From: Nibricoccus aquaticus
GTDB lineage: Bacteria; Verrucomicrobiota; Verrucomicrobiia; Opitutales; Opitutaceae
Direction of reading: 5' to 3'
DNA length: 64,000 nucleotides
Assembly: GCF_002310495.1 (NCBI RefSeq)
Contig: NZ_CP023344.1
Span: 4,543,501 to 4,607,500 of the forward strand
Positions 40,482 to 59,334 of this stretch are shown here, in pieces. The notes beneath the pieces are model-generated. The model had not been told where the DNA came from. It saw nothing but the letters and a program-made list of their open reading frames with translations, and searched no databases. Positions within the stretch are counted from its first letter, which is position 1. Each line of letters opens with the position of its first letter. Both the position numbers and the translations under genes were made by a program.

Positions 40482-43400
40482 TTACGGATTGGCGAAGATA
40501 TATTGCCAATAAGCCTGCATGCCAGGGATGGCGCTTTCGCGATCGATCATCCATTCGCGCCACAGCGTAAACGAACCGGCCTGACTGTCGCGATAGGTCA
40601 GGAGATCGCGCATCGCGGTTTCAGCCTGGGCATTGTAAGGCAACGCGGTGCTTGGATCGACGAGACGGATCGCCTTCGCGGTCAGACGTCCGTTGGTGCA
40701 CGCAGCCCTAAGGAAATCCAGGCGGGCCAGCGCTGCGGTTTCACCCGGAGCGAGCAGGGCTTGGGCATCATCAAGGATTTGCTCCGCTCCATCGAATGCC
40801 GCGTCGCTGTAGGTCGATCCATAGGCATTCATGCCTGAGGACCAGCCGAGGATCGTGGTATTCCCGTTGTCCGCTTCGTTGTAGATGAAGTTTTCCCAGT
40901 ACGTGAAGTAGTCACGCACGCGGGTGGACGCACTGCCAAAGCCCGAGCAGTACTCGTCGACAACCGCCTCTACATCGATTTCCGGGCGGGCCATCTGGCG
41001 CGCCATCAGATAATAGTAGAGACCAAAGCTCGCATAGCTGCCGCAAGCACTGTCGGAGTCCATGCCGAGGAGATAACCGCCGGCGAGCATCTCCTTGAAG
41101 TGATTCCCCAGGCGATGGGTCGGCCAGAATGGCCCTGCGTGCGCGGACAACATCCAGTTTGGACGGAGATACATCTGCGTGCAGCCCGCCGCGATCCAAC
41201 CGAGTACGTCGGTCTGAGTCTCCGCGATTTGATCGAGGAGCACATCACTGGGCGCACCGGGGATATAAGCGATCGCCACGTTCGAAGGCAGCGTGGCCAC
41301 CTGCGGGGCGTTCTTGTAGGTGTCGTAAGCGTAACCGTACACCGTCGCGCTAGGGTTGATGGCCGCCACGCGTGTAGCGACTTCCGAATACCAGCGTGCG
41401 TAACGATCGCCGAGCAGGGCATCGCTGCTTCCAAAGACTACATTGGCGGCTTGCGATGGGTAATCCCATGCAAGGCAGCTTGCGCACACGCAGAAGGATC
41501 GGCTGTCGTTCGGACACAGATTCAGGCTGTTTGGCGAACCTGCGGCGACCCACGCGTCCACACGGGCCTGAATCGTGTCGGCTCCGCTCACATGCAGTTT
41601 CACCAGCGTCGTCGATGGATCAGGATGGGAATGGCCCGGCAGCAACGTCGCGAAATATTCGGGATGCGTCGCACCATAGGTTGCCCACCACGCGGTCTCG
41701 GAGTGACCGAAGGCGGGATTTTTGCGTTGGCCCATGAATTGCCGGCGCTGCCACAGCACTTCTTCGTCCGCGAGCGCGGTGCGGGTTGTGCCACTCGCGG
41801 GCAGAACAGGAATCCCAAATCCGTACGTCGTGGAACCGCCCTTGTAGAGGCCAACACGCGGATTCCGGTACTTGCGCTGCACCATGTGCGGCCCGGTCGT
41901 GATGTTGAGCGACGGAAGGTCGAGCGTGCTCGACGCATTCACCACGATGCCGTCGTCTCCCGGCCAGAGCCAGCGGACGTCCATGACTTCTCCTAGGAGA
42001 TAATAAACGCCGAAAAGCGTCGCAGGCTGGCAGCCCGACAGATCCGTCCAGTCGTTGTTGCCACCGTCCTTGCCGACGATGTGGAGATTTGCGCCGACCG
42101 TGCGGATGATAAAGTACTCTGTGGAGAGCGCGCTTGTATCGACTCCCGCGGACGTGCTCGCGGTGTTCGCGCCGAGATAGATGAATTTCTTTCCCGGATA
42201 ACTACCTTCGTTGCCGACCGTCGAAATCGTGACTGTCGCGCCCGTGATCAGCTGCAGATGCTTTTGCAATTCCTGCGCCGCCTTCGTGACCGATGCGATT
42301 GGACTCGGCTTCGTCATGAGGACGACCTGCGACGTGCCGCTGGAGACGAGCGTCATCTTCGGAACGACCGTGACGGTGCCGGATCCCGAGGCAAATCCGG
42401 CAACACCGAATAGCGTATTCAGATCGGAGGCCGTGTAGGTGCCAGGAGTGTTCAGCACGGTCGTCATCGAGGACGATTCAAACGCACCACCGTAGCCAAG
42501 CTGGCCTGGCAATACCGTGACGTTCGCCGAGAGATTCAGGAAGCCCACCGTCGCGGATCCACCAACCGTCGTCGGGAAGTGAATGATCGCGGTGGGATTG
42601 GTCGCGGAGAAATCGATGTTACCCGCAAATCCAAGCGTGTGCTTGTGGATGGCCTTGATCGAAGCACCGCGCCATCCTGTCAGATCCTGGAACGACGTCA
42701 TCAGCCAGCCGTTCATTTGCGAGCCGCCGGACGGGCCATCGCGGAGGAGGATGTTACCCGTGCCGGTCACCGGAGACTTAATGACAAAGTGAACGTCATT
42801 GGTATTGGCCCAGAAGACCGTGTCGCCATTGAGCGTCAGCGCACCGTCGAGCGTGGTGCGGCCGGTATCGGCACGGAGATAACGCACGGCGCCACTCGAG
42901 GTCGGCGCGGTTACGATGTCCGCAATGTACGTGCCGCGGGTAGTGGTGTTCGTGCCGTCGCCCGCGCGGGGACCGACCATGGCATCGCTGCCGGCACCGG
43001 TGTTCGCGAGTTGGAACCAGAGCGTGCCGTTGGTGGCGTTCGAAGTTACGCCGGAGGTTGCGCTATAGGCATCGATCACCAGCTCATCGCCCGCGAAGGT
43101 CGAATAAGGCTCGGGACCGCTGGCAACCGTGCCTCCCGTCGGACTGCCGATGCGGCCGCCTTTGACGGTATATCCGTTAGTATGATACGTCACACCGGAT
43201 GTCGCCGTGGTGTAGGTAACGCCGGCATCGGACGTCCATTTGTACGCTGTGCCACTGGTGGCATCGTTCCAGCCGTTGGCTGTGGCGGCCGCACCGCTTC
43301 CGCCCGCCCAGCCGTTTGTGACCGTCGGCGCCGCGGCGATGGTTATCGCCAGTGCACGCGTGCCGCTGCCCGCACCGTTTGTCGCGCTGACCGTGAGATT

Positions 43401-44573
43401 CGTCGTGCCCGCAGTCGAAGGAGTACCGCTGATCATGCCGGTGCTCGCGTTAATGCTGAGTCCCGCCGGAAGCGATGATGCCCCAAATGTCGCGGTCTCC
43501 CCAACGGCAGTCACCAGATAGTTGAACGGTACGCCTACCCTGCCAGAAGCCGTGGTGAGGCTCGTGATTGCGGGAGCAATCGCAGCCGCCGGTTTAACCG
43601 TGAGCGTTCCCGAGCCGGCTGCAAAGGCCTGCGTCGCGTAGCCGCCGGTGTTCCAAAGCGCATTCAGTTGCGACGCCGTGTAAGTGCCGTCCGGAAGCAC
43701 GCTCGCGCCGTAGGTCACCTTGCCCGACGCAAAGGAAACATTGGCGCCGAGATTCAGAAAGCCAACCGATGTCGTCGAAGGAAACGTCAGCGCCGCGCCC
43801 GGATTGGTTACCGTGAAATCAACCGCGCTGGTGAAGCTGATCGTGTGTTTGTTGGTGACGGAAATACTAGCGCCCGTCCAACCGGAGAGATTTTCGAACT
43901 CCCAAGTCACGTAACCGTTGGCCGTTCCGCTGCCGGCCGAGCCACCGCTGATCTCGATGCTCCCCGTGCCCAGGACGGTGGATTTGACGGTGAACAGCAT
44001 GTCGTTGACGCCGGAAGGCACGCTCAACGTGGTCTTGCCGTTCAAACGCAGCGTGCCGTTGAGCGTGGTCACGCCGGTCGATCCGCGAATCGTGCGGGTC
44101 GATCCCGGTGTGCCGCCAATCGCATCGGTAGCGATGTTGGCCACGTAATTCGCCTTGGTGGACGTGCTCGGACTTCCCAAACGCGGCCCGGTGGCGCTAC
44201 TCGCCAGTTCGAAGAGCAGGATGCCGCCTCCGCCTGCGGAACCATCCGTCAAAGTGGAAGCGCTGCTGAATCCGTCGATGACGAGAAGCTGTCCGGAAAA
44301 GTTATATGGATTGGGACTGCCTCCCGTCGTGTTGCCGACCCGGCCCGCGCGCAGCGTGTATCCGTTCGTATGATAGACGTTGCCGGCCGTGCCGGAGGCA
44401 CCGACATAAGTCGAGCCGCTGGTCGTCCATTTTACATTGGCATTGGTCGAGTTCCAGTTGTCCGAACTTCCGGCACTCGCATTGACGTAGTAGTTTGTCT
44501 GGGCGAAACCGCCAGCGGCCAGGCTCACGAAGAGCGCAGCCGCGGAACACCGCATTGCGGATAATTTAGTCAT
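40482..44573 (-). CDS. Large exported DUF4838 protein with two unrecognised ~300-aa modules
   Basis: The 1363-aa protein has a signal peptide (AALFVSLAAGGFAQ) and a good Shine-Dalgarno (AAGGAG). Residues about 25-330 and 415-735 are two copies of a beta-rich module with hallmarks VYHTNGYT..GRVG/GRIG, LLVIDGFSS / LVIDAYSA, GPRLG / GPRAG, LNGT-LRLNG, GSIEISGGSAGS, W-F-NL-GW-GASI and KHTISF. A putative Ig (He_PIG-like) domain (AGTTNLTVSATNGAGSGT) separates them. From about 750 the protein matches DUF4838: an alpha-glucuronidase-like N-domain (AAQELQKHLQLITGATV, FIYLGANT) and a TIM-barrel region (LCPNDSRSFCVCASCLAWD, NPSATVYGYAYDTYKNAP). The action is probably on glucuronate-containing polysaccharide outside the cytoplasm; no activity is proven for DUF4838. 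Confidence 0.78.
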   Translation of the reverse strand: MTKLSAMRCSAAALFVSLAAGGFAQTNYYVNASAGSSDNWNSTNANVKWTTSGSTYVGASGTAGNVYHTNGYTLRAGRVGNTTGGSPNPYNFSGQLLVIDGFSSASTLTDGSAGGGGILLFELASSATGPRLGSPSTSTKANYVANIATDAIGGTPGSTRTIRGSTGVTTLNGTLRLNGKTTLSVPSGVNDMLFTVKSTVLGTGSIEISGGSAGSGTANGYVTWEFENLSGWTGASISVTNKHTISFTSAVDFTVTNPGAALTFPSTTSVGFLNLGANVSFASGKVTYGASVLPDGTYTASQLNALWNTGGYATQAFAAGSGTLTVKPAAAIAPAITSLTTASGRVGVPFNYLVTAVGETATFGASSLPAGLSINASTGMISGTPSTAGTTNLTVSATNGAGSGTRALAITIAAAPTVTNGWAGGSGAAATANGWNDATSGTAYKWTSDAGVTYTTATSGVTYHTNGYTVKGGRIGSPTGGTVASGPEPYSTFAGDELVIDAYSATSGVTSNATNGTLWFQLANTGAGSDAMVGPRAGDGTNTTTRGTYIADIVTAPTSSGAVRYLRADTGRTTLDGALTLNGDTVFWANTNDVHFVIKSPVTGTGNILLRDGPSGGSQMNGWLMTSFQDLTGWRGASIKAIHKHTLGFAGNIDFSATNPTAIIHFPTTVGGSATVGFLNLSANVTVLPGQLGYGGAFESSSMTTVLNTPGTYTASDLNTLFGVAGFASGSGTVTVVPKMTLVSSGTSQVVLMTKPSPIASVTKAAQELQKHLQLITGATVTISTVGNEGSYPGKKFIYLGANTASTSAGVDTSALSTEYFIIRTVGANLHIVGKDGGNNDWTDLSGCQPATLFGVYYLLGEVMDVRWLWPGDDGIVVNASSTLDLPSLNITTGPHMVQRKYRNPRVGLYKGGSTTYGFGIPVLPASGTTRTALADEEVLWQRRQFMGQRKNPAFGHSETAWWATYGATHPEYFATLLPGHSHPDPSTTLVKLHVSGADTIQARVDAWVAAGSPNSLNLCPNDSRSFCVCASCLAWDYPSQAANVVFGSSDALLGDRYARWYSEVATRVAAINPSATVYGYAYDTYKNAPQVATLPSNVAIAYIPGAPSDVLLDQIAETQTDVLGWIAAGCTQMYLRPNWMLSAHAGPFWPTHRLGNHFKEMLAGGYLLGMDSDSACGSYASFGLYYYLMARQMARPEIDVEAVVDEYCSGFGSASTRVRDYFTYWENFIYNEADNGNTTILGWSSGMNAYGSTYSDAAFDGAEQILDDAQALLAPGETAALARLDFLRAACTNGRLTAKAIRLVDPSTALPYNAQAETAMRDLLTYRDSQAGSFTLWREWMIDRESAIPGMQAYWQYIFANP

Positions 44574-44591
44574 AATACTCCTTCACATTCT

Positions 44592-44606
44592 CCCTGAATT
44601 TCAGGG
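44592..44606. repeat. Perfect palindrome CCCTGAA-T-TTCAGGG
   Basis: A 7-1-7 perfect inverted repeat sits 19 bp upstream of the DUF4838 start codon, next to the Shine-Dalgarno. It could act as an operator or an RNA leader hairpin controlling this gene. Confidence 0.5.
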
Positions 44607-44725
44607 TCCCATGGGGTACATGGGTATGATCAATCGATTCGGACTGTACAGGCACCTCCTGCCTCAGCGAATAAAGCGCTGAATACAGGGAGGCGCTGCG
44701 GCCGAACCGCCTGTTGGACTAACAA

Positions 44726-44751
44726 AAAGTGCCGTACTACGACGGCACTTT
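44726..44751 (-). terminator. Intrinsic terminator after the pectate lyase gene
   Basis: A 10-bp perfect stem AAAGTGCCGT/ACGGCACTTT with a 6-nt loop reads on the minus strand as GGCACTTTTTGTT. It starts 20 bp after the stop at 44771 and separates this gene from the DUF4838 gene. Confidence 0.85.
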
Positions 44752-44770
44752 GAAATAATCACCGGAAAGT

Positions 44771-47620
44771 TCAGCGGCTCTTTTTCCTCGAGAGCACGAC
44801 ACGTAACGCCGTGGTCGACGCGAGCAAACCGAGGAACCAGAGCGAGGGTGAGCCACCACCACCGCGCTGTGTTTGCACTTCAGGAGCAAGCCCTGTGGTA
44901 GCACCATTGGAGACGGGGACGCTCGAATTCAAAAAGATCGTCGCCGGCGCACTGACGACCATATTTCCGCCGGCGCGGCCCAAGGCCACCGTGTAGGCAC
45001 CGGCGTTGGCGGCGAAGCCGTTGGCCACGCTGTAGGTGATGTTCGTCGCTCCAGGGATCTCGATGTTATTCAGTCTCCACTGATAAGACGTAGCCGTGAA
45101 ACCGGCCGGCACAGCAGTGAGCGTAAACGGATCGCCGATCAGCAATCGCGTTGTGGGTGCGGTGATTGTTGCGGAAGCACTCGTAGCATTCGCGGTCCAT
45201 GCGCCATCGATGTTGCCCGCCTGGATACCCGTCGTCGCGGCCACCTGCGCGGTCGGAATCATTTCGTACGAATAGGGCGGCGTGAACACGACATCCGTAC
45301 CCACATCGAGCGGTGTGCCCGAGGAGACCGTAAACGTCGTGTCGATAATGCGGAGCTTTCCGGCAGGCAGGCTGGTGTTCACATTCTGCTTCGAGAGCGG
45401 GTTCGCCATGGGCGAGTAAAGACTTCTCTCCACGAGGAACTGCGCACCGTCACTCGCAACGCCACCGGAAGTGTTACCGGTCGTATTGAAGTAGTTATTG
45501 AATTGATGCACATAACCGTAGCTCGAAAACGGCATGCGCTGGTCCACAAGCGATGACCACCAGTTGCCCTGGAGCGTGACACGCATCGGATTGGTCTCGG
45601 CCCCCGCCTGGCCGATCGTCATCGCGTAACGATGCGCGGTCTGCGCGGAGGTGTAATAGAATTCGCACCAAGAGACAGTGATATTGTCCGAGCCGCCGCT
45701 GATCTCGATCAGTTCGTCGGCGCAGTTAAAGAGGGTGCAATGCGTGATATAAACCTTGGAGGCATTCCGCACCTTGATGCCGTCTCCGCCATCCGGATAG
45801 ACGCCGCTTACTGGAGTCGTTCCGGGGTTGGTGATATTGAGGCCGCGGATAACCACGTTGGTGACCCCGCCGTTACTCAGATCCAGACAGCCCACGATGG
45901 TGGCATCGCCGTTCATGCCTTGAATGGTCTTGTTTGAAGCGACACGCACGCTGCCGCCGACGCTCGCCAGAGATATCTGCCCGAGAACTGTGACGGTACT
46001 TGCGGAGGAAGACTCTGCAGCCGCTTTGAAATCAGCCGCGTTGGTCACAAGCACCTCTGCCCCGTTGGCGCCGCCCGTTGTCGTGGCGGCAAAACCGGAG
46101 GCAACCGGCGCCGGGGCCACTGTGATCGTCAAGGTGACGGCATTGCTGAAGACACTGCTCATGGAGCTCGAAACCTTGACGCGATACTGGCCGGCGTTCG
46201 CCGATTGGGCATTTGGAACTGACAGTGTTGCCGAGTTCGAATTTGCGATGGGCTGGCCGTTCCGCTGCCACTCGTAAGTAAACGGACCGTCGCCGGTCGC
46301 CACCACGGAGAAGGAGGCCGTCCCGCCGATGATGACAGTCTGCGCAACCGGTTGGGTCGTGATGTTCACAAAGCCCGGAGGCTGCACCGTCAAAGTCGCG
46401 GCTGAGCTGAGTGTGTTGCCGCCTGCGTTGGACACCTTCACGCGATACTGGCCCGCGGATGACATCTGCGCGTTGGTGACGGCATAGGTTGCCGAGTTTG
46501 AATTCGAAATCGCAAAACCATCCTTCTGCCACTCGTACGTAAAGGGACCTTCGCCAGTCGCGGTGACAGAGAAGGAGGCGGTTCCACCTTCAGACACCAC
46601 TTGATCCGAGGGCTGGCTCGAGATGCCGGGAGGCAGCAACGGCGCAACCGTCAACGTGCCGGAGCCGCTCGCAAACGGCAGTGTGGCATAGCCGCCGGTT
46701 TTCCAGAGAGCGTTCAACTGAGCCGCTGTGTACGTGCCGTCAGGAAGAATATTTGTGCCCCACGAAACTTTGCTCGAATCGAATTTCACATTCGCGGAAA
46801 GATTCAGGAATCCAATCGAGGTCGCCCCAAACGTCAGCGCCGCCCTCGAGTTCGTGATGCGAAAATCGATATCCCGCGTGAAGCTGATCGTGTGCTTGTG
46901 CTGGACGAGGATCGTACTTCCGGTCCACCCCCGCAGATCTTCAAAAGCCCACATCACCCAACCGTTGGCGACCGCACTGCCCGCGCTGCCACCGCTTACC
47001 TCAATATCTCCGTTTCCGATGACCGCAGATTTTATTGTTACCAGAACATCCGTCACGCTGTTGGGAATAGAGAAATTAGTATAGCCGTTGGCCGCCAAAG
47101 TACCCTGCAACACGGTCACGCCCGTGGAGAAACGCAGATGTTGAGTTCCCGCTGTTGTAGATGTGCCCGTGGCAATATTGGCCGAATAACTTCCCTGCGT
47201 GACGGAGCCTGGCACGCCCAATCGCGGTCCTGTCGACGTTGCCGCCAGTTCGAAAAGAAGGATGGCGCTGCCACTCGATGCTCCGGTGAGACCCGAGGTC
47301 GAGCTGAAGGCATCCACAACGAGTTTTTCACCCAAAAATACAGAAGAGGCGGTCCCATCCGTAGTGCCGATGCGTCCAGCGCGCACAGTATATCCGTTGG
47401 TGTGATACACATTTCCCGGAGTCGCGCTGGCGTCCACATACGACGCACCGCCGGCGGGCGCCCACATGTATGTATTGGCCGCTAGATTCCATTTATTTTC
47501 CAGCGACGGTGCATCTGCCGAGCCCGGGCTCTTGTTGGCATAATAATTCACCTGCGCGCTGACGTTGACCGCCATCGATAAGAGGGCCGCTAAAGCGAAA
47601 GCTGTGTATCGTAGTTTCAT
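44771..47620 (-). CDS. Exported multidomain PL1 pectate lyase with C-terminal sorting-like signal
   Basis: The 949-aa protein starts with a signal peptide (FALAALLSMAVNVSAQ). It then has one copy of the ~300-aa module shared with the DUF4838 protein (about 24-340) and two Ig-like domains (YEWQKDGFAISNSNSATY and YEWQRNGQPIANSNSATL). A PL1 pectate lyase domain covers about 515-800. Its parallel beta-helix includes calcium-site residues (DGGDGIKVRNASKVYITHC, CADELIEISGG) and DQRMPFSSYGYVHQFNNYF with the PL1 catalytic Arg region. After another Ig-like domain, the end is GGGGSPSLWFLGLLAS, a hydrophobic helix and RKKSR, resembling GlyGly-CTERM/PEP-CTERM-type tripartite signals. It would release oligogalacturonates outside the cell. 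Confidence 0.85.
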   Translation of the reverse strand: MKLRYTAFALAALLSMAVNVSAQVNYYANKSPGSADAPSLENKWNLAANTYMWAPAGGASYVDASATPGNVYHTNGYTVRAGRIGTTDGTASSVFLGEKLVVDAFSSTSGLTGASSGSAILLFELAATSTGPRLGVPGSVTQGSYSANIATGTSTTAGTQHLRFSTGVTVLQGTLAANGYTNFSIPNSVTDVLVTIKSAVIGNGDIEVSGGSAGSAVANGWVMWAFEDLRGWTGSTILVQHKHTISFTRDIDFRITNSRAALTFGATSIGFLNLSANVKFDSSKVSWGTNILPDGTYTAAQLNALWKTGGYATLPFASGSGTLTVAPLLPPGISSQPSDQVVSEGGTASFSVTATGEGPFTYEWQKDGFAISNSNSATYAVTNAQMSSAGQYRVKVSNAGGNTLSSAATLTVQPPGFVNITTQPVAQTVIIGGTASFSVVATGDGPFTYEWQRNGQPIANSNSATLSVPNAQSANAGQYRVKVSSSMSSVFSNAVTLTITVAPAPVASGFAATTTGGANGAEVLVTNAADFKAAAESSSASTVTVLGQISLASVGGSVRVASNKTIQGMNGDATIVGCLDLSNGGVTNVVIRGLNITNPGTTPVSGVYPDGGDGIKVRNASKVYITHCTLFNCADELIEISGGSDNITVSWCEFYYTSAQTAHRYAMTIGQAGAETNPMRVTLQGNWWSSLVDQRMPFSSYGYVHQFNNYFNTTGNTSGGVASDGAQFLVERSLYSPMANPLSKQNVNTSLPAGKLRIIDTTFTVSSGTPLDVGTDVVFTPPYSYEMIPTAQVAATTGIQAGNIDGAWTANATSASATITAPTTRLLIGDPFTLTAVPAGFTATSYQWRLNNIEIPGATNITYSVANGFAANAGAYTVALGRAGGNMVVSAPATIFLNSSVPVSNGATTGLAPEVQTQRGGGGSPSLWFLGLLASTTALRVVLSRKKSR

Positions 47621-47643
47621 ATTAGAATAGTTTTGCTGGGGTA

Positions 47644-48453
47644 CTAAGCTTCGAGGGCGACCGGATTGGTCAGCGCACCGATCTTCTCAATTTCGATGGT
47701 CACGACGTCGCCGGCCTTGAGCCAGCGTGGTGGCCGGGCAGCCATGCCCACGCCATGCGGAGTGCCGGTGAGTATCACCGTGCCAGGCAGCAATGTGGAG
47801 CTGGCGCTCAGGAACTCGATCAACGCCGGCACATCGAAAATCATGTCGTTGGTATTCCAGTCCTGAACAACGTCCCCGTTCAGGCGCGTGCCGATGCGGA
47901 GCGCGTTGGGATTGGGAATCTCATCCGCCGTGACCAGGCAGGGACCGAGCGGGCAAAATGTGTCGAACGACTTTCCGCGGCTCCACTGGCCTCCGCCCCG
48001 CTTGAGCTGCCAGTCGCGTGCGCTGACATCATTAGCCGCCGTGTATCCGAGAATGTAATCCAGCGCGTTTTGACGCGTCGCGTTCTTGCAGGTTTTTCCG
48101 ATGACGACCGCCAGTTCGCACTCGTAGTCGACCTCGTCACTTGGCAGCTTCGTAGGAAGCTGAATCGGTTCTCCCGGATGCTGGAGAGTATTTAAACTCT
48201 TGGAGAAGAGTACCGGAAACTCGGGAACCTTCGCGCCGCTTTCCTCGGCATGACGACGATAGTTCAAGCCGATGCCAAGGATCGCCACTGGATCCACAGG
48301 CGCGAGAAGACTAAGAGGCGGCTGGACTATGTGGCCGGTGCGCTCCAGCCCGGTGTAAAGATCGCCGCGGAGCACTTCGATCGCGCCACCTTCGTAAACA
48401 GGCATGCCGAAAACCGTTTTCCCTTCCGCGTTTTTGAATCGAATGACGCGCAT
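47644..48453 (-). CDS. Fumarylacetoacetate hydrolase-family enzyme
   Basis: The 269-aa protein has the FAH fold motifs ILGIGLNYRRHAEE, FPVLFSKSLNTLQHPGEPI, metal ligands Glu111, Glu113 and Asp142 in DYECELAVVIG and NDVSARD, QWSRGKSFDTFCPLGPCLV, and GTVILTGTPHGVGM. Members hydrolyse C-C bonds of diketo acids such as 2,4-diketo-3-deoxy sugar acids. Its place between the TonB receptor and pectate lyase genes suggests a sugar-acid intermediate. The pectate lyase gene starts 23 nt downstream, and a hairpin (48500-48533) separates it from the receptor gene. Confidence 0.87.
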   Translation of the reverse strand: MRVIRFKNAEGKTVFGMPVYEGGAIEVLRGDLYTGLERTGHIVQPPLSLLAPVDPVAILGIGLNYRRHAEESGAKVPEFPVLFSKSLNTLQHPGEPIQLPTKLPSDEVDYECELAVVIGKTCKNATRQNALDYILGYTAANDVSARDWQLKRGGGQWSRGKSFDTFCPLGPCLVTADEIPNPNALRIGTRLNGDVVQDWNTNDMIFDVPALIEFLSASSTLLPGTVILTGTPHGVGMAARPPRWLKAGDVVTIEIEKIGALTNPVALEA

Positions 48454-48499
48454 TAGGTTTATGAGCTGGATCGAGCCTTAAAATCGCTCTGATGGGAAA

Positions 48500-48533: not shown

Positions 48534-48551
48534 AACTAACCCAAACAAAGC

Positions 48552-51500
48552 TTAGAAATCGAAGGTGGAGGTGAAGATGAACAGCCGTGGATCGATGATG
48601 CGGTAGGCGCTCGGCGTTCCGTCTGGAAATGCGGATACAGGCTGCAACCGGGTCGAGTCTTCCTGGATATTACTGACGTTGATCTGGAAGTTGGCCCGAA
48701 TCCGCTTGGAGATCTTCGTCTTATAGCCGATGCCAATGTCCGCATAAAAGCGGGCTTTGTCATAAACCGGACGATTGCCATCGAGGTCGCGATAGATACC
48801 GCCCGCATCGGGAATACCGTAGTAGCCGATGGCTGCTTTATCCGCCCAACGGGCGGAGGCGCTAATATTGAAACCTTTCAGAATCTTGTTCTCGGTGATA
48901 CCTGCCAGCTGGAAATTGGTAGAGTACTTGACGCTGTATTTTCTGATCTGCGGCAGCGTTTTGCCCTCCTTCGACAATGCCAGCCTAAGCGGTGCTGCTA
49001 CAGTGCCTAGATAGAAGGCACTGGGCGTGGTGCTATTGACGCCATTGTACTGGCTGGTCCACCAGTTGGCTCCAGTACGTGTGTCGATCAGGCTCTGCCA
49101 GACCGGTAGGCGCTCTTCGATGTAGCTGAGCAACGCTGGTGACAGATTTCCCTGCACAGATTCCTGCTGGGTGACGTTGGCTTTCATGCGCCAGTACCAA
49201 ACAGGCTCGTAGTTGAGCTCGATTTCAGTTCCCCGCGCCTGCACGTCTTCGGTTTCGGCGAGAAGCACATCCGAACTGTCGATTAGCGACCTGATTCGCT
49301 GCTCATCCAGCTGCATGAGCTGGGCGGTTTGAGTGAACAGTTGATCGGGAGGCAACATGCCGCCGGCCGCCGCCTGTATCCATTGAGACGCCTGATTAGT
49401 GAGCGCAAAGTTACGCGATTGCGCCTGGTCATCCCAGATATCCAGACGGGCGGCAGCGCGCGCGATTGTCGCCGAAACACCACTACGACTGTTCAACTGC
49501 TCGTTCTCATAGCGGTTCACACGCAGGGTGAACTTGTTATCGAAAAACTTCAGCAGGATGCCCCAGTCCTTTCCTTTGCCGGTAGGATTGGGAAGATTTT
49601 GGCCATGCAGATCGATTGCGGGATCGGCAGGCAGAAAGCTGTCCGATTTATTTCCGTAAATATTGAGCCACGAGAGCGCTTTCCAGACCGCGCCGATCGT
49701 TTCTGTCGTGCCGCGGGTTTCTATAGGTTGCGCCCACTGATCATCCCACTGGAAATCGTGGTTCAACGCATCTGGCATCAACCGGGGCACGACACCGTAA
49801 GTATTGGAGAGACGATCCTCGCGCAGACCCAGCGTGGTCACCAGCCGCCCCTTCAGCCAGTGGCTTTGCAAAACTACGCCTGCGGTTTTCTGCTCTTTGA
49901 GCAGATTCGCCCTGCCGCCCGTGCCATCGAGGCTACCGGCTAGACCCAGCTGGGTCGGTTCGTAATTAAATACGCCAGTCACTGCATTGCCCCAAGCGTA
50001 GTTGTAGATTCCTGGAGACACAGCGCCCGGGGCATAGTCCACATTAGTGCCATTGGCGTCGCCCACATAATAGAAGTTATAGTTACGCGTGCCGGTGGAT
50101 GAAGCGAGATTGTAGGGGTCCGTTCCATACTGGCTGTTGGTGGTTCCTCGCGGCGTTCCTGATGGAAGCCATGTGTGATTATCGATCATCGCATAGCGAT
50201 AATTGAAGTTCTGGCGCATGAATTCCTTATACTCAAAATAGGGAACCGCTTGATGAACGCCCAGCCAGCGCGACAGCCCCTTGTCGCGGCTGAAATCGAG
50301 TTTGTAGGCGATCTGTGCGCGATACGTGTCGTTCAGCAGTGGAGAATCCGAGGCATAGGCGTCGCTGATCGCGATGTAGGGACGCAGGTAGTTAGGGTTC
50401 GCCGTTCCATCGAGACGACGGCGATTGACGTCTACCGCTAGAAACCCGCCGGTAGGACCGGAAGAATTTGGCCGGCCACTGAGAAGATTTTGGAAACGTG
50501 ATGAATCCTCGCGAAACCAGCCAAGCTGGAGCGCCAGCATCTGCTTCGGTGTTTCAATCACCGTCTGCGTCGCCTGGACAAGGAAGGTGTCTGTCTTGTC
50601 CACAACGTAGTTTCCCGATGCCACATTGATGGAACTCCAGTCGTACAGGGCTTTGTCACTTACCGCACCATCGCTTGTGAACAGCGGCTGCGTCAGTCGG
50701 TTCGTCTGGGGATTCAAAATCACATAATTGTACGCAGCCTGATTCGGCGTGAGGGGATTGTCGCTGCTCGTACCGCGAGGAGCGGCCCAATAATTAACCC
50801 CTGAAGGATCTACGAAAATGAGGGAGGACCCGCGTCCCGAATTCTGCCATCCCGTCACAAATCCATAGGCAGACATGCTGGAGCTGACGATCTGATCATC
50901 GACATAAACCCGCGCTGTTAGTGGATCCCACGTAGGCGATCCACGCCCCAGCCACGGCGTGATGCCGTCTCGCGGAGTCACACTGTTCGGACGATTCCCT
51001 TTCAATTCATAGTACTGATAGGATGCGCTCAGCGTCGTCTTTTTGAACGGCTGATACTTCAGCATAAAGTTGTACCGCTCCGTGTCCGTCCCAGATGGCT
51101 TAAGCCTGTATTTAGTGTCCTGATAAACCTGGCTGAATCGGAACGCCAATTTGTTCTTTATGAGAACCCGGTTCACATCGAGGTGCTCCCGGAAACCGCC
51201 AATGCTATCGAAGCGAACCTGCGCCTGATTCTTATTTTTGTTCAGGTTTCCCGTGGCCGCCACCATGTTCACGGTGCCGGAAGGATTACCGAGACCGAAT
51301 ATCGTCGAGCTGGGCCCGCGGCTGATCTCGACACCTTCAATACCGATGCGATCCACGGGGACGCGACCGCTGGTTTCAAAATTTCCCAAAGAAATATTCG
51401 CAGAACCCATGCCGCGGATACGATTGGCGCTCGTTGGATCGGCCATATTGCCGTCGATCGGATTGCCGCTGTTGTTCACCGAAAAATCGGTGTATGTTCC

Positions 51501-51995
51501 CATGCCTTCCGTACCCGCTTCGTATGTGAAGATGTCGTTGAGATCGAGCATCGCAAAATCATCCATCTGATCGAGTGTGACCACGGTGACTGACGCCGGG
51601 ATGTCCTCGACCGTCGAGTTGATGCGCGTGCCTGCCTGCGTGCTCGACGCATAGTAGCCGGTGCGCTGTTCATTCACCTCGAACACCGACATCTCTATCG
51701 GCTCCTCTGACATGAATTGTTCTGTTTTTTCGACAGGCTTTTTTACGGCGTCGACACGATCCGCTTCGCGTTTTGCCTGTTCGGCGGAATCAAGGACTCC
51801 GTCTTTGTTCGTGTCATATTTCGCGAGCACGGCGGCATCCAGCACCTCGGGCGCCACCGCCTGTGCGAACGTCAGCGTCGTTGGCAACGCCAACGTACAG
51901 GCAGGAAGCAGCAGGCGACCCAACAATGACCCGGATTTGAATTTAGGTCCTACGGTCTGACGACGGTTTTCGATTCTGGCCGGATGAGAAGTCAT
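48552..51995 (-). CDS. TonB-dependent outer-membrane receptor with N-terminal EF-hand
   Basis: The chosen start (MTSHPARIENRRQTVG, 51995) gives 1147 aa; a frame from 52070 adds 25 unlikely residues. A signal segment (LLPACTLALPTTLTFA) is followed by a canonical EF-hand loop DTNKDGVLDSAE and a short charged linker. The plug domain then contains INSTVEDIPASVTVVTLDQMDDF, RGMGSANISLGN and GVEISRGPSSTIFGLGNPSGTVNM. The rest is a beta-barrel ending in aromatic FTSTFDF. It is a large SusC-like importer without an STN signalling domain, probably for pectin- or uronate-derived oligosaccharides given the neighbours. The tandem IclR-type operator lies 178 bp upstream of the start. Confidence 0.88.
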   Translation of the reverse strand: MTSHPARIENRRQTVGPKFKSGSLLGRLLLPACTLALPTTLTFAQAVAPEVLDAAVLAKYDTNKDGVLDSAEQAKREADRVDAVKKPVEKTEQFMSEEPIEMSVFEVNEQRTGYYASSTQAGTRINSTVEDIPASVTVVTLDQMDDFAMLDLNDIFTYEAGTEGMGTYTDFSVNNSGNPIDGNMADPTSANRIRGMGSANISLGNFETSGRVPVDRIGIEGVEISRGPSSTIFGLGNPSGTVNMVAATGNLNKNKNQAQVRFDSIGGFREHLDVNRVLIKNKLAFRFSQVYQDTKYRLKPSGTDTERYNFMLKYQPFKKTTLSASYQYYELKGNRPNSVTPRDGITPWLGRGSPTWDPLTARVYVDDQIVSSSMSAYGFVTGWQNSGRGSSLIFVDPSGVNYWAAPRGTSSDNPLTPNQAAYNYVILNPQTNRLTQPLFTSDGAVSDKALYDWSSINVASGNYVVDKTDTFLVQATQTVIETPKQMLALQLGWFREDSSRFQNLLSGRPNSSGPTGGFLAVDVNRRRLDGTANPNYLRPYIAISDAYASDSPLLNDTYRAQIAYKLDFSRDKGLSRWLGVHQAVPYFEYKEFMRQNFNYRYAMIDNHTWLPSGTPRGTTNSQYGTDPYNLASSTGTRNYNFYYVGDANGTNVDYAPGAVSPGIYNYAWGNAVTGVFNYEPTQLGLAGSLDGTGGRANLLKEQKTAGVVLQSHWLKGRLVTTLGLREDRLSNTYGVVPRLMPDALNHDFQWDDQWAQPIETRGTTETIGAVWKALSWLNIYGNKSDSFLPADPAIDLHGQNLPNPTGKGKDWGILLKFFDNKFTLRVNRYENEQLNSRSGVSATIARAAARLDIWDDQAQSRNFALTNQASQWIQAAAGGMLPPDQLFTQTAQLMQLDEQRIRSLIDSSDVLLAETEDVQARGTEIELNYEPVWYWRMKANVTQQESVQGNLSPALLSYIEERLPVWQSLIDTRTGANWWTSQYNGVNSTTPSAFYLGTVAAPLRLALSKEGKTLPQIRKYSVKYSTNFQLAGITENKILKGFNISASARWADKAAIGYYGIPDAGGIYRDLDGNRPVYDKARFYADIGIGYKTKISKRIRANFQINVSNIQEDSTRLQPVSAFPDGTPSAYRIIDPRLFIFTSTFDF

Positions 51996-52172
51996 GGAAT
52001 GATGTAGCAACGGGGATCGGGAGCGGTGCTTGCCGGAAGGCGTCAGCCTCGCATTGGGCGAAAGTCCCAAGGGCTCGAAATGTCGCGCGACGTCTTCGGG
52101 GTGATACGTTTTCCGGAGAAACCGGGAGCGAAAAAGGCGAGGACGGGGGACATTTCTCGTCAGGGACTATGC

Positions 52173-52476: not shown

Positions 52477-53850
52477 ATGCAGCCTGTTTCCCTTTGGCTG
52501 ACCAACCGCCGGACGCAGCCTCCGGACATGGTAATTACCACTCCTCCCGCCAATCCCCGCACGCAACTAACGGTCACTCAGTCGGCGGTCATCCTGAAGC
52601 GGTTCTTTTTTCTCGAACGTGAATTGATCTACCTAAAAGCAGGCTGGCTGCCCGGAACCTCTCACTGGGAATCCAAGCTTTTGCTCCCGGAAATCGCCTG
52701 GGAGAGCTCACTGCTCGCAAAGGAACTTCGTCAGCGCGTGCTTGAGTTGCGCTATCCCGAACGACGGATCGCGATAGAAGGCGAAGAGCCGCTGGTGGCG
52801 TTTTTCCGTCGCTGCGGAGATGCTCCAACCGCCGTCGCGTTTCTGACCGGCCTGGCGTTCGTGGTTAAGCCCCGGATACTGGAAATTTACCGCCTCTATC
52901 GATCACTCTCCGATCAATTGGATGACGGCCCCACCCAGCGTTTTCTCTGTCATGGAATAAGCGACCTGGAACGTCAGATAGCGCGACTCCAGCTCACCAC
53001 CCGGACCGCGATGGATTCCATGCCGGAGCAGGCAGATGGCGCACGTCAATGGGAGCGAGCCCTGGCCGCCCTATTTAGTCAGCTGCCGATCGATGCGCTT
53101 TTCTCTGACGAACCGATGACAGATAACAGCGAAGCAAGCCCTCTGTCCGGCCGGCTTTTCGCCATGGCACGAATTGGTGCGCGCGATCCACGTTTTCAAC
53201 GCGCGGCCTTCGCCTGGCCCGACCGGCACACTCCATCCGATCCCGGCCAGGGCCTTCAACTTCAGGCCAGACAGGCCGTGCACCACATTAACGAAGTCTG
53301 GGCTGCGGAAATGGCCGCCGCCTGCATTTGGGATCTCGGACCGACGGCGCCACATGAGTTTTTGGACGACGCGGCGCGTTGGTGTTATGACGAGATACGC
53401 CACTGCCGCATGGGCTACGAACGGCTTAAAGAATGGGGCTTCGCCGATCACGAGATTCCACTCGATTCATTCTCCTACGATAGCGGGCAGTTTCTAGATC
53501 CGCTGACTCGCCTAGGCATCATTTTTTATTTCGAAGCCACTTACATCCATACAAAGAAGGAAAGGACGCTGATCTTTGCCGAGTTGGGCGACCGGCTTAG
53601 TTCGCATGACATGGATTTCGATTGGGCCGACGAATTGATCCACACCTACTACGGCAAGCGCTGGCTGGAAGAACTTCTCAAACAACACGGGAGCCGGAGG
53701 AAACTAAGCGACGTCAAAGAGGACGCCAAAGCCGCTGTCATTGCGAAGATCGCGGAGGCCAGCGAGCAGGAGAAATTGCTGACGAAAGAAATCTTCGACC
53801 GCGTCATGAAAAAAATGATGACCATTCAGGAGAGCACCCTTGCGGAATAA
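52477..53850 (+). CDS. Ferritin-like (DUF455-like) protein
   Basis: The 457-aa cytoplasmic protein has no signal peptide. An ATG 17 codons in is an alternative start, but the first one has a better upstream GCGGGA. Residues about 275-345 (VHHINEVWAAEMAAACIWDLG, DAARWCYDEIRHCRMGYERL) look like the ferritin-like DUF455 pattern, with carboxylate/His ligands in Glu-x-x-His; a third helix (FYFEATYIHTKKERTLIF) carries more candidates. The N-terminal part (FFFLERELIYLKAGWLP, PRILEIYRLYRSLSDQL) is helical with no name. It diverges from the TonB receptor across the shared operator region, so it may be co-regulated. The function could be a di-iron oxidase acting on a sugar or amino compound; this is not established. 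Confidence 0.65.
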   Translation: MQPVSLWLTNRRTQPPDMVITTPPANPRTQLTVTQSAVILKRFFFLERELIYLKAGWLPGTSHWESKLLLPEIAWESSLLAKELRQRVLELRYPERRIAIEGEEPLVAFFRRCGDAPTAVAFLTGLAFVVKPRILEIYRLYRSLSDQLDDGPTQRFLCHGISDLERQIARLQLTTRTAMDSMPEQADGARQWERALAALFSQLPIDALFSDEPMTDNSEASPLSGRLFAMARIGARDPRFQRAAFAWPDRHTPSDPGQGLQLQARQAVHHINEVWAAEMAAACIWDLGPTAPHEFLDDAARWCYDEIRHCRMGYERLKEWGFADHEIPLDSFSYDSGQFLDPLTRLGIIFYFEATYIHTKKERTLIFAELGDRLSSHDMDFDWADELIHTYYGKRWLEELLKQHGSRRKLSDVKEDAKAAVIAKIAEASEQEKLLTKEIFDRVMKKMMTIQESTLAE

Positions 53851-54137: not shown

Positions 54138-56171
54138 ATGTCCGGCCTGCACTTTTTGGATTTCCTCATCATCGGCGGTTATTTTGTCGTCATTATCGTC
54201 CTTGGAAAAATGGCCGTGAAGGAAGCCTCCACCGGTGAAGGTTTTTTTCTGGCGGGCCGGAAACTCGGCAAGGTCTATCAGTTCTTCCTGAACTTCGGTA
54301 ACTCTGCCGCCGCCAGCGACGCGGTCAGCACCGCGAGCATTGTCTATCAACAGGGCATTTCGGGCATCTGGATTGGATTTCAGATGATCTTCCTGAATCC
54401 CTACTACTGGTTCATGTATCCGTGGTATCGGCGTGTCAGGCTCACAACCACCGCGGATATTTTTAAGGATCGTCTCGGCAGCACGCGTCTCGCGGTCTTC
54501 TACGCCGCCTTCACAATCGTCTCCGCCGTCGCCGTGACCATGGCGTTTGGAAATCTGGTCTCGTACAAAATCTCGTCCGCCCTCGTCACCAAATCCGAGG
54601 AGTCATGGACACCCGCCGAGCGACAATCGGTCGCCGATTACCGCGAGCTCCGGCAGATGGAAACGCTCTCGGTCAAAGGCGAACTGCCCGAAGAGAGTCG
54701 CGGAAAACTGTCCGTGCTGCGCGAGCGGCAAGCACGTGGCGAACTCAGCAATTTCGTCACCGCACTCAAGCCCTGGCCTTTCTACATCATCTACACGCTT
54801 ACCATCGGCGCCTATATCGTGATGGGCGGCATGGCGGCCACCGCGTTTGCCGAGGCGTTTCAGGGAATTCTTATTGTCGTCTTCTCGGTCATCCTGATTC
54901 CCGCAGGAGTCGCTGCGGCGGGGGGCTGGGATCAACTCGGCCAGCGACTGCCTGCGGAGGCGCTGCAACTTTTCGGCTCAGGTGCCGGCCTTTCTCAATT
55001 CACCGGATGGACCATCGCCGCCGTTTTCCTCGCCACACTGATGCAGGCTCATGCGATGCCTGGCAATATGTCGATCGCCAGCTCGGCCAAGAACGAATTC
55101 GCCGCGCGCTTCGGAGCAGTCTCCGGCACCTTCGGCAAACGTCTCGTCACGATCACGTGGGCATTCTGCGGTTTGATCGCCATCGCGCTCTACTCCGGCA
55201 CCGACGCACTCGCCGATGCCGATATGGTCTGGGGCACGATGTCCCGCCAGTTACTCGGGCCCGGCCTGCTCGGCCTGATGTTCGCCGGCGTGATCGCCTC
55301 TAATATGTCGACGATCGCCGCCAAGGCCATGTCGGTTTCCGCGTTGTTCGCGCACAATATCTATCGTGGCTTCCGCCCAAATGCATCGGACAAAGATCTG
55401 GTGCGGGCCGGTCGCTGGACACTCGTCGTGGTGCTGCTGGTCGGCGTGGTTGTCTCCAGTCAGCTGTCGAATGTCTACACCGTGCTCCAATTCGCCATGA
55501 CCATCAACGTGCCCTTCGGCGCGGCACTCTTACTGATGTTCATCTGGCGCCGGGTGACTGTCGCCGCGGTCTGGACCGCCGTCGCGGGATCGGCGCTGAT
55601 CAATATCATCTTCCCGATGACGGCCCAGCACTTCTCCGGCATCACCACTGAACCATCACTGATCGTCCGCGTTGTGGACACAGAAGGCAGGCCCGTCCCG
55701 GTATACTTCGAATCCGTCGTCCGCTCGAATCCCGAAGATCACGACAGTCCGCTCGAGGGACGCGGCCGCCTCCACACCGAGCTGGTCCTTTTGAATGCCG
55801 TGGGCGTCGATGTGCAGGGACTTTCTTCCGGCGGACGTCTCGCCGGACGGTTCTTCGTGGATGCGCTGCTGCCCTTCGCGCTTATCCTCGTGACGTCTCT
55901 GATCACACGCAATCCTTCGCGTGAACGGGTCGATCAATTTTTCGGCAAAATGAAAACGCCGGTCGGCGACACACCGGAACTGGATGCAGCCGCCATGCTG
56001 GCCACTGAACGTGATCCCCACCGTTTTGACGACCGGAAGCTTTGGAGAAAATCTTCCTGGGAGTTCACACGCTGGGACCGAGTGGATACAATCGGTTTCC
56101 TCGTCAGCTGCGTAATCACGCTCGGGATCATCGGACTCCTTTGGGTCGTGGTGCACACGGTTTCGGCCTGA
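54138..56171 (+). CDS. Sodium:solute symporter family transporter (SSS)
   Basis: The 677-aa membrane protein begins HFLDFLIIGGYFVVIIVLGKMA and carries SSS signatures (FLAGRKLGKVYQFFLNFGNSAAASDAVS, YWFMYPWYRRVRLTTTADIFKDRLGS, MPGNMSIASSAKNEFAARFG), with about 13 hydrophobic segments. Two soluble insertions are unusual: a charged loop of about 50 residues near 150-205 and a periplasmic-looking domain at about 500-590 (SLIVRVVDTEGRPVPVYFES). It would import a sugar or organic acid with Na+. The alpha-glucuronidase-like gene follows 13 nt downstream, suggesting a uronate-containing substrate. Upstream 53851-54137 contains no gene. Confidence 0.88.
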   Translation: MSGLHFLDFLIIGGYFVVIIVLGKMAVKEASTGEGFFLAGRKLGKVYQFFLNFGNSAAASDAVSTASIVYQQGISGIWIGFQMIFLNPYYWFMYPWYRRVRLTTTADIFKDRLGSTRLAVFYAAFTIVSAVAVTMAFGNLVSYKISSALVTKSEESWTPAERQSVADYRELRQMETLSVKGELPEESRGKLSVLRERQARGELSNFVTALKPWPFYIIYTLTIGAYIVMGGMAATAFAEAFQGILIVVFSVILIPAGVAAAGGWDQLGQRLPAEALQLFGSGAGLSQFTGWTIAAVFLATLMQAHAMPGNMSIASSAKNEFAARFGAVSGTFGKRLVTITWAFCGLIAIALYSGTDALADADMVWGTMSRQLLGPGLLGLMFAGVIASNMSTIAAKAMSVSALFAHNIYRGFRPNASDKDLVRAGRWTLVVVLLVGVVVSSQLSNVYTVLQFAMTINVPFGAALLLMFIWRRVTVAAVWTAVAGSALINIIFPMTAQHFSGITTEPSLIVRVVDTEGRPVPVYFESVVRSNPEDHDSPLEGRGRLHTELVLLNAVGVDVQGLSSGGRLAGRFFVDALLPFALILVTSLITRNPSRERVDQFFGKMKTPVGDTPELDAAAMLATERDPHRFDDRKLWRKSSWEFTRWDRVDTIGFLVSCVITLGIIGLLWVVVHTVSA

Positions 56172-56184
56172 TCATCCCAGCGCC

Positions 56185-58269
56185 ATGATGCCGCTATCAG
56201 AAAAGGGCCCGCCGGAAATCACCTGGTCCATCATGCATCCGACTCAACCGGATGCCGCCTACATGCGCAGGATCATCGCCGAGGCCGCGCACTATCACGT
56301 GGATAGTTTCGAGATTTGCGGAGATGCCCACGGCGCCAGCGGCAATCTTGATGGGGCCATCTTTTTTCGCGACTACCCGGAAGCGGCCCGGCATGTGGAT
56401 CGCGCAGCCGTTGAGAAGAACATCCAGACGCTTCGTGAAGTCGCCGAACTCGCCCATCAGTCCAACCGTCCCGTCTATTACTGGCATCGCGAAGTCATGG
56501 TACCGCGGAAAATCGTGGAGACCATTAACGGCCTTCTCGATGAAGATGGCGAATTCAACCTCTTCGGCCAAGTCTATCACGATCTGCTGCGCTCCAAGTT
56601 GCGGGAGTTTTTTCAAAACGTCCCGGAAATGGACGGCGTCGTTCTGACGGTGACTGAATCGGACTACTCGGTTATTCATAACTCAAATCCCGAGCGATAC
56701 CCGCCAGCGCAGGTGATAAAAGCGATCATCACCACACTGGCCGATGAACTCAAACGCCTGAAACGCCGGTTCATCCTCCGCAGCTTCGGATCCATCGCCC
56801 AGGACTACGAAGACATCCTCGAAGGAGCGCGCCTGGCCGGGACCGATTTCGATTTTGAAATCGAAACGAAAATCACGCCTTACGATTTCAGTCCGTTTCT
56901 TCCGCTTAACCCTTACTTGAATAAGACCGGCTCATTCGCGCTGTCCGCCGAGTACGATTCCATCGGCGAATTTCTGGGCGCAGGCTATCTGCCTGCAGCG
57001 CATCCCGAGCGGGTGCTGGAATGCGTGGCGCACGCCACCCGCATGGGCGTGAGCCGGCATGTGATCCGGATCGATCGCATAGGACATCCGACATTTTCAT
57101 CCGCTCAAGCGATTCACCTGCTTGCGTTTGATCGGGCCATCCGTTTCCCGGACACAAAGCCCGATACGGTCTGGAAAGAATGGGCCGCAATCCACTGGCC
57201 CGCATGCGCCGAAAAGATGATCCGCTTGATGCAGCTCAGCATCGAGATGACCGGAAAGACGCACTTCATCGATGGGCACGTCATTTTCCACGCATTCCCC
57301 ATCGATGCCGGACTGAAGTGGATCAAGGCCTGCGGAATCCTCTCGGTGTTCACACCCGATATCGACCTCGGCATTCATCAGGGGATGTGGGGCATCCTGC
57401 CAAAGAAAACGCCCTCACGATCCGCTCTTCTTGCGGAAAAAGAATCCGCCGTGCGCATCGCCGATGAGTGCCTGCAAGGGCTGCGCGGCCTGCAGTCACT
57501 CCTCTCCCCCGACGAATATCGCACACTCGAAACAGCCTGGAAAAATGCCTCTGCGGTCACCCGGCTCGTCCGCAACTGGTGCCGGTGCATCTGTGCCTAT
57601 CTCGACGACCTGCAAGCACTGGGCCCGCACCATCCGAACCTCGACCGGGCGATTTTTGAAAGCAGGCAGGACTTCGAGCGCATCACAGGCACATCGCTGC
57701 CACTCAGCGCCACGGCCGAATCCAAAACCCAAAAGACTCCAGGTAACGAATACGGCGGCTACGATCACGGATGCGACAACATCGAAGACGCCTATGCCCA
57801 CCCGCTTTGGAAAATGATCCTGTCCCTGCCCGCCGAATATGCAGGCGAGCGCTCCGAAAGGCTTCGCTGGAATACTCTCCCCTCCCTGATCGACGCGGTC
57901 GTCTGCGGCGGCATCGCCGATGATCATCGCGTGCAGCGCTACATGCATGCGAGTCACGCCACGCTGATCGACGGCCGGCCCGCGAGGGCAGCGGGAAACC
58001 GCGTTTTCCCCAATGGATATATCCAATGCGAACTCCGCGCACCGGAATCATCCGATTGCGTGTTTATCGTCCGGGGAGATCCTGCCAAATCGAGGGGACT
58101 GCGCATCACGATAAACGGCCAGACCCAGAACGTGGAATACACAGCGGACGGCACCTATTCATGTCCGCTCCCCGCTGACGGGCGTAAAACAATCACCGTT
58201 CGTATTCAAAAAACAGGGGCCGACTATCCCTCGATCTACGGACTGGCCACAGCGTCAAAAGCCACGTGA
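56185..58269 (+). CDS. Alpha-glucuronidase-like (GH67-like) cytoplasmic glycoside hydrolase
   Basis: The 694-aa protein lacks a signal peptide. The central TIM-barrel resembles GH67/GH115-like folds: AHYHVDSFEICGDAHG, DGVVLTVTESDYSVIHN with acidic residues at a strand end, RRFILRSFGSIAQDYEDILEGARLAG and DFEIETKITPYDFSPFLPLNPYL. C-terminal helices and a small beta-domain (CELRAPESSDCVFIVRG, LPADGRKTITVRIQ) follow. GH67 removes 4-O-methylglucuronate from xylo-oligosaccharides, usually inside the cell after uptake, fitting the transporter 13 nt upstream. Similarity is by pattern only, and I cannot confirm catalytic residues. Confidence 0.6.
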   Translation: MMPLSEKGPPEITWSIMHPTQPDAAYMRRIIAEAAHYHVDSFEICGDAHGASGNLDGAIFFRDYPEAARHVDRAAVEKNIQTLREVAELAHQSNRPVYYWHREVMVPRKIVETINGLLDEDGEFNLFGQVYHDLLRSKLREFFQNVPEMDGVVLTVTESDYSVIHNSNPERYPPAQVIKAIITTLADELKRLKRRFILRSFGSIAQDYEDILEGARLAGTDFDFEIETKITPYDFSPFLPLNPYLNKTGSFALSAEYDSIGEFLGAGYLPAAHPERVLECVAHATRMGVSRHVIRIDRIGHPTFSSAQAIHLLAFDRAIRFPDTKPDTVWKEWAAIHWPACAEKMIRLMQLSIEMTGKTHFIDGHVIFHAFPIDAGLKWIKACGILSVFTPDIDLGIHQGMWGILPKKTPSRSALLAEKESAVRIADECLQGLRGLQSLLSPDEYRTLETAWKNASAVTRLVRNWCRCICAYLDDLQALGPHHPNLDRAIFESRQDFERITGTSLPLSATAESKTQKTPGNEYGGYDHGCDNIEDAYAHPLWKMILSLPAEYAGERSERLRWNTLPSLIDAVVCGGIADDHRVQRYMHASHATLIDGRPARAAGNRVFPNGYIQCELRAPESSDCVFIVRGDPAKSRGLRITINGQTQNVEYTADGTYSCPLPADGRKTITVRIQKTGADYPSIYGLATASKAT

Positions 58270-58320
58270 GCCATCCTGCGCCGAAAAATCGACGAGTCAG
58301 CCACCTCGCAATTCCCACTT

Positions 58321-59334
58321 ATGAAATCCCAGCTCTCACCCTTCACTTTTCTACGGGCCCGCGCTCTCGCTGTTCTCGCATGCGGCCTCATTTCAATTCC
58401 CGCGGCGATCGCACAGACCGACTTCTACGCAGCCTCGTCGAAAGCCAACAACAACGACCGCTGGAACAATGCCGACGCACCGCGCAAATGGACCTCGGAC
58501 GGAAAAACCTGGGTCGGCGCCAAGACAGGAAACGTCTATCACACCAACGGCTATCAGATCAAAGCGGGTAACATCGGCACCAGCGGTGGCGCAAAACCAG
58601 TGTCATCCAGCTTCAATGGCGCCAAACTCATCATCGACGGCTTCTCGTCTACCTCCGGCGTGAGCGCTGAAGGCGCGGGCGATGGAGAAATCGTTTTCGA
58701 CCTGAAAAGCGGCGGAGCCGTGGGACCGCGAGCAGGTGGATCCAAGAACGCCACCTTGGGCGGCTACCGCGCGGACATCGTCACCGCAGTCACTCTTGGA
58801 GCAGAAAAGCGCACACTGCGCGCCGCCGTGGGAGTGGCTGTCCTCGACGGCACACTCACGCTCAATGGAAATACCCGGTTCACCACCGGCAGTCTGAACG
58901 ACATGCGGTTCATCATCCGCTCGGCTGTCACCGGCAGCGGAAACATCGAGATCAATGGCGGCTCAAGCGGCAGCAAGATCGCGAACGGTTTCCTGACGTG
59001 GGAATTCAAAAATCTTTCCGGCTGGCGCGGCACCTCCATCGCCGTCGCCAACAAACACACGATCAGTTTTTCCAGCCCCACGGATTTCGCCCAGATCAAT
59101 CCAGCGGCCAGCCTGAGCTTCTCCTCCGCCGCGACCGGATTCATCAATCTCTCCGCAGACGTGTCGGTGGCCTCGGGTAAATTTTCGTTCGGCGATCACG
59201 TGCTCGAAGACGGCGTGTACACCGCCGATCAGTTAAATGAGCTTCACGTCAGCAAGTGGAACGGCTCTAAAGACTATCCTTTTGCGAGCGGCAAAAGCCG
59301 CTTGTTTGTCGGACGATCGATCAGCGCTCCTTGA
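58321..59334 (+). CDS. Exported stand-alone copy of the ~300-aa VYHTNGY module
   Basis: The 337-aa protein has a signal peptide (LAVLACGLISIPAAIAQ) and consists almost wholly of the module found twice in the DUF4838 protein and once in the pectate lyase: RWNNADAPRKWTSDGKTW, VYHTNGYQIKAGNIG, LIIDGFSST, GPRAGG, TLRAAVGVAVLDGTLTLNG, GSGNIEINGGSSGS, WEFKNLSGWRGTSIAVANKHTISF, and DGVYTADQLNELH. It lies 51 nt after the GH67-like gene. A role as surface binding protein or scaffold is a guess. Confidence 0.75.
   Translation: MKSQLSPFTFLRARALAVLACGLISIPAAIAQTDFYAASSKANNNDRWNNADAPRKWTSDGKTWVGAKTGNVYHTNGYQIKAGNIGTSGGAKPVSSSFNGAKLIIDGFSSTSGVSAEGAGDGEIVFDLKSGGAVGPRAGGSKNATLGGYRADIVTAVTLGAEKRTLRAAVGVAVLDGTLTLNGNTRFTTGSLNDMRFIIRSAVTGSGNIEINGGSSGSKIANGFLTWEFKNLSGWRGTSIAVANKHTISFSSPTDFAQINPAASLSFSSAATGFINLSADVSVASGKFSFGDHVLEDGVYTADQLNELHVSKWNGSKDYPFASGKSRLFVGRSISAP

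Follow-up and report, generated by a model that had tools for sequence, protein, structure and literature searches.

Four copies of an exported module of about 305 residues lie in three proteins of one sugar-polymer-degradation gene cluster of Nibricoccus aquaticus. The cluster was found in the window, that is, the whole analysed stretch of 64,000 nucleotides, and its genes form two divergent same-strand runs. The minus-strand run consists of a TonB-dependent receptor, a fumarylacetoacetate-hydrolase (FAH) family enzyme, a pectate lyase with one module and a DUF4838 protein with two modules. The plus-strand run consists of a DUF455 protein, a symporter, a 694-residue protein and a stand-alone module. 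The features are as follows, where G048 is the genome of a second genus described below.

40482..44573, minus strand: DUF4838 protein gene, encoding a signal peptide, copy A1, a He_PIG domain (Pfam E 4e-12), copy A2 and a DUF4838 domain (Pfam E 1e-18)
42339..43316, minus strand: module copy A2, in the DUF4838 protein, with He_PIG on one side and the DUF4838 part on the other
43590..44501, minus strand: module copy A1, the mature N-terminus of the DUF4838 protein, after a signal-peptide-like stretch ending GGFAQ
44771..47620, minus strand: pectate lyase gene, encoding a signal peptide, copy B1, two Ig domains, Pectate_lyase_4 (Pfam E 3e-17) and a Gly-rich tail with a hydrophobic stretch and a basic end
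46637..47560, minus strand: module copy B1, the mature N-terminus of the pectate lyase
47644..48453, minus strand: FAH family enzyme (Pfam E 8e-76), between the receptor and lyase genes on the same strand
48552..52070, minus strand: TonB-dependent receptor (Pfam); a relative lies near the modules of G048 (48% over 1249 columns)
52477..53850, plus strand: DUF455 protein (Pfam), 56% identical to one encoded near the modules of G048
54138..56171, plus strand: sodium:solute symporter (Pfam SSF E 1.5e-23), 13 bases ahead of the gene of the 694-residue protein
56185..58269, plus strand: 694-residue protein, 51 bases ahead of the stand-alone module gene, with a 56% identical relative near the G048 locus
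58321..59334, plus strand: stand-alone module gene, encoding a signal peptide and copy C only
58405..59331, plus strand: module copy C, almost all of the stand-alone exported protein

The copies are 304 to about 326 residues in length and share 41-57% pairwise identity over 289-325 columns (BLASTP), with E-values of about 1e-57 to 1e-112, well past chance. A search of the whole N. aquaticus genome returned exactly four modules, all within the window. These results bear out the first-pass annotation, which had placed four copies in these three proteins. Copy A1 is 57% identical to B1 and 49% to C, and A2 is the most diverged among the four. The motifs that had been listed for the module are present in the proposed order, with several departures in A2 (TYHTNGY, AYSATS, DGPSGG, and KHTLGF) and with ANG in B1 where the others have LNG. 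The module opens with a W/N-rich N-terminal segment (WN...YHTNGY...F-G-xL-x-ID) and closes with a C-terminal cap, in which an L-DGTYTAxxLN helix is followed by the final strand. Pfam confirms DUF4838 and Pectate_lyase_4 as the partners, in agreement with the claim that the module occurs both on different catalytic domains and alone. In one study (PMC9870897), a DUF4838 protein is labelled GH163. It was also observed that the DUF4838 protein (40482-44573, minus strand) matches the GH67 N-terminal domain below threshold (14.6 bits against a cut-off of 24.3), which may be a distant tie to alpha-glucuronidase-type enzymes.

Is this module common in related bacteria? Only two of 252 genomes of the family have it; outside N. 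aquaticus, full-length copies were found in G048, which has three of them in two proteins.

L009:4581-8741: Ig-repeat protein of 1386 residues with two modules at its front
L009:14249-15394: stand-alone module with a PEP-CTERM tail (TIGR02595, 17.4 bits against a cut-off of 16)

Since Pfam finds no catalytic domain in the Ig-repeat protein, enzyme fusion is not the rule. Relatives of the receptor (48%), the DUF455 protein (56%), the DUF4838 protein (29-32%), and the 694-residue protein (56%) are encoded within 50 kb of the G048 modules, as is a GH28-type protein, the pectin-type enzyme of that locus as the pectate lyase is in the window. Thus, the company of the module with a TonB receptor, a DUF4838 protein, and a pectin-type enzyme recurs in two genera, and the two loci match in part. 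A tree of the seven modules does not settle their branching and gives no order of duplication. The 694-residue protein, which has no Pfam match and no NCBIfam match above cut-off, is an uncharacterised conserved protein of the locus; its relatives of 57-59% identity over nearly the full length occur in six other genomes of the family. Obligate co-travel of the module and this neighbour was considered and rejected, because the protein is present in five other family genomes where the search found no module. Thus, the two can be inherited separately, and the locus is independent of the module. No relative of the module was found in two genome-contig scans and a viral-contig scan at E 1e-3 or among plasmids by tblastn, and a PHROGs search gave noise only.

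All three window proteins start with a signal-peptide-like stretch, as read by eye, and the module follows directly. The C-terminus of the lyase (GGGGSPSLWFLGLLA...RKKSR) is Gly-rich, hydrophobic, and basic. A tail of this kind (44771-44930, minus strand in the lyase), with GGGG(S/A)PSxWF, a hydrophobic stretch, and a basic end, recurs in roughly eight further large frames of N. aquaticus. NCBIfam models do not match the Gly-rich tail; since it ends several other large proteins, it is probably a C-terminal sorting signal specific to this lineage. The PEP-CTERM cut-off of TIGR02595 is reached by none of the three window proteins. Exosortase-like PF09721 matches over cut-off number six in N. aquaticus and six in G048. 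Haft et al. (PMC1569441) proposed, then without experiment, that extracellular material gains a protein component from PEP-CTERM proteins. In the window, no C-terminal anchor can be recognised in the stand-alone protein or in the DUF4838 protein, both of which may therefore be freely secreted.

The position of the module directly after the signal peptide in three of three window proteins could mean that the module itself fixes enzymes to the cell's own surface or exopolysaccharide, and the Gly-rich hydrophobic tail on the lyase and the PEP-CTERM tail on one G048 copy can be read along the same lines. However, the lyase bears both the module and the tail, which makes an anchoring role of the module redundant there, and a stand-alone module that carries a PEP-CTERM tail is itself cargo rather than an anchor. 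Such an anchor is therefore improbable.

An AlphaFold2 model of copy C, built on an alignment of seven rows, is a right-handed parallel beta-helix (pLDDT 85, pTM 0.87). Foldseek gave no significant match in the PDB (best E 1.7) and nothing significant among viral models. When the Foldseek candidates were aligned with VIA-align, right-handed beta-helix proteins occupied nearly all top rows. They included a K2-2 phage tailspike in complex with an oligosaccharide (Z 10.5 over 223 residues), Jun a 1 (10.3), pectate lyase A (9.9), the Awp1 adhesin (9.9), a Caldicellulosiruptor adhesin (8.8), and a tapirin domain (7.8); Z-scores near 8-10 are only moderately above the tool's stated typical best of 7-8 for models without a clear match. 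The right-handed parallel beta-helix is strongly predicted for the module. The structure prediction suggested in the first-pass annotation, which was to look for a binding groove, yielded a fold and identified no binding residue; the beta-helix assignment alone carries no information on the function of the module. The earlier proposal of a cell-surface module fits the signal peptides, the sorting tails, and the predicted fold.

The module had been described as matching no known domain, and this holds for Pfam, NCBIfam, and PDB sequences. Pfam has no match over any of the four copies even at E up to 10, NCBIfam has nothing over the four modules, and the module profile has no match among PDB sequences. 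A single-sequence match to PDB 7on6 (E 8e-5) spanned 25 residues of the chain SAKe6AE and disappeared when the profile was used. The profile search that had been proposed as a check thus returned no already described family with known function in these three databases. Literature searches gave no description of such a module.

Relatives were nevertheless reached through profiles. In a larger sample of the order and phylum, the matches of the seven-row profile were all short and weak; the scan scored only the best few candidates per genome and may have missed rare weak relatives. One of the weak matches (G590, E 8e-4) led to a two-module protein, which in turn led to exported beta-helix proteins that stand alone in G627 and G700. 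In hhalign, each E-value being that of a single comparison, the seven modules match these relatives at E 5e-10 over 232 columns, seven relatives at E 1.4e-11, and five stand-alone proteins at E 2e-9 when the bridging sequence is left out; the controls (18 column-shuffled, 2 reversed) gave E 0.15 to 0.84. A combined 11-row profile added full-length members in G081 and G298, from two other families of the order, and matched 15 of 288 genomes at E 0.001, several by a partial match only; five of the 15 had themselves supplied rows of the profile. Weak partial matches at L018, L019, L025, and L029 were set aside as chance-like, the proteins there being unrelated or the frame not a gene.

The relatives (loci L034, L035, L066, L067, and L068, and the two-module L024) show colinear profile homology over most of their length and are, like the module, unnamed in Pfam. 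They are likewise exported, with a beta-helix model, the N-terminal WN...F-G-xL and the C-terminal GTYTAxxLN...GTGSLTV. In contrast, they are about 50 residues shorter, the YHTNG, GPR, and KHT motifs are missing, and no enzyme fusion occurs among those read. The separate model of one relative is again a beta-helix and ends in the same helix and strand (pLDDT 84.6, pTM 0.85); it resembles the UpaB autotransporter (closest, Z 12.8), the PfbA adhesin, and tapirin. Given the hhalign homology and this model, the module belongs to a family of beta-helix proteins that is unnamed and thinly spread in the phylum; the window subfamily is longer and adds the YHTNG, GPR, and KHT motifs. The first-pass annotation had called the module one of this lineage, which needs correction: the window version occurs in the two family genomes mentioned above, and homologous stand-alone beta-helix/PEP-CTERM proteins are thinly spread in other families of the order and elsewhere in the phylum.

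The positions kept in both the subfamily and the wider family are N21, F70, G72, L75, G149, G177, G186, G209, Y272, T273, and N278; they are mostly glycines and are likely fold positions. This pattern fits a role of the module as a structural spacer or matrix protein, a ligand-free beta-helix that lifts enzymes off the surface or builds an extracellular sheath, with the stand-alone forms as matrix proteins. It also accords with this possibility that most of the relatives read in the rest of the phylum are small PEP-CTERM proteins that stand alone, with no enzyme attached, and that two G048 modules sit on a multi-Ig protein. On the other hand, YHTNG, GPR, H218, W207, and D166, which lie outside the general pattern, are chemically active and invariant in the seven-copy subfamily, which is more than a spacer seems to require. 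A spacer is to be taken most seriously among the spacer, anchor, and catalytic alternatives, with perhaps one chance in four.

The invariant residues of the subfamily include His, Arg, and Asp (H46, D78, R109, D166, H218, and D227), and the fold resembles that of pectate lyases (Z about 9-10). Might the module then be a divergent polysaccharide lyase or hydrolase, so that the fused proteins are bifunctional? Pfam finds no lyase or hydrolase match over the module, hhalign gave E 0.09 against the window's own lyase domain and 0.27 against the GH28-like protein of G048, the wider family does not keep most of the polar residues, and the module is joined to separate enzyme domains. Catalysis by the module is thus hardly to be expected.

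What was computed, namely the homologous copies, the fold prediction, the homology to beta-helix/PEP-CTERM proteins, the partly conserved locus in a second genus, and the PEP-CTERM tail on one G048 copy, leads me to favour another role. Considering the mature N-terminal position, the company of lyase, DUF4838 protein, TonB receptor, and symporter, and the fold together, I infer that the module is a surface-displayed, non-catalytic beta-helix rod that holds plant polysaccharide or the cell's own matrix near the enzymes by adhesion or presentation, with a probability of roughly 0.55. The secreted module would form a rod on the cell surface or outside the cell, either by itself or as the N-terminal part of a larger enzyme. 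This rod would keep plant polysaccharide (pectin-like or uronic-acid-bearing) or the matrix close to two enzymes, the pectate lyase and the DUF4838 protein, and their products would then enter the cell through the TonB receptor and the symporter. The gene context makes substrate binding plausible, and glycan binding is the most likely role of the module. A more specific version, less likely than not, is offered tentatively: exosortase-sorted surface proteins may have been recruited to the N-termini of extracellular enzymes for binding, and the module would then represent a new family of carbohydrate-binding beta-helices directed at pectin-type glycans, with YHTNG, GPR, and KHT as a subfamily-specific glycan site.

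PEP-CTERM proteins and large beta-helix surface proteins of unknown role are many in bacteria of this kind. The fusion to, and co-encoding with, pectin-type enzymes and uptake genes provides a testable substrate hypothesis for at least one branch of such proteins. If binding is true, a beta-helix family would join the known non-catalytic modules of polysaccharide degraders, and it would hint at how exosortase-sorted surface proteins enter nutrient capture.

Several known systems can be compared with the module. Carbohydrate-binding modules have an accessory place beside the catalytic domains of polysaccharide-active proteins, as the window module does. Attachment to carbohydrate-active catalytic domains was found in the window (pectate lyase and DUF4838), and the G048 copies are on an Ig protein or alone. 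Common carbohydrate-binding modules are beta-sandwiches, in contrast to the predicted beta-helix of the module, and the module has no match to such a family in Pfam. The pectate lyases and related beta-helix enzymes (PL1, GH28) have the predicted fold in common with the module, which is without a lyase family match and, by the hhalign comparisons above, without a sequence link to them.

Proteins with the 30-residue autotransporter-associated beta-strand repeat (PATR, PF12951) are beta-helix surface proteins as well. The two genera differ widely in these autotransporter-type surface repeats, with 14 matches in the N. aquaticus genome and 81 in G048. The module is not a PATR repeat, as it has no Pfam match at E up to 10, and hhalign against 12 PATR units and their proteins stayed at noise level (units E 0.05), one reversed control having reached E 0.002, which is the noise level for single long repetitive sequences. 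The tapirins and the C-terminal domains of Caldicellulosiruptor adhesins (PDB 6n2c, 4wa0) are, like the module, secreted beta-helices, with Z-scores of 7.8 and 8.8, although no sequence match to the module was found. They come from a different phylum. Tapirins attach cells to lignocellulose (PMC9933333). In this comparison, the module adds one new branch to a well-known type of surface protein and does not amount to a system of a new type.
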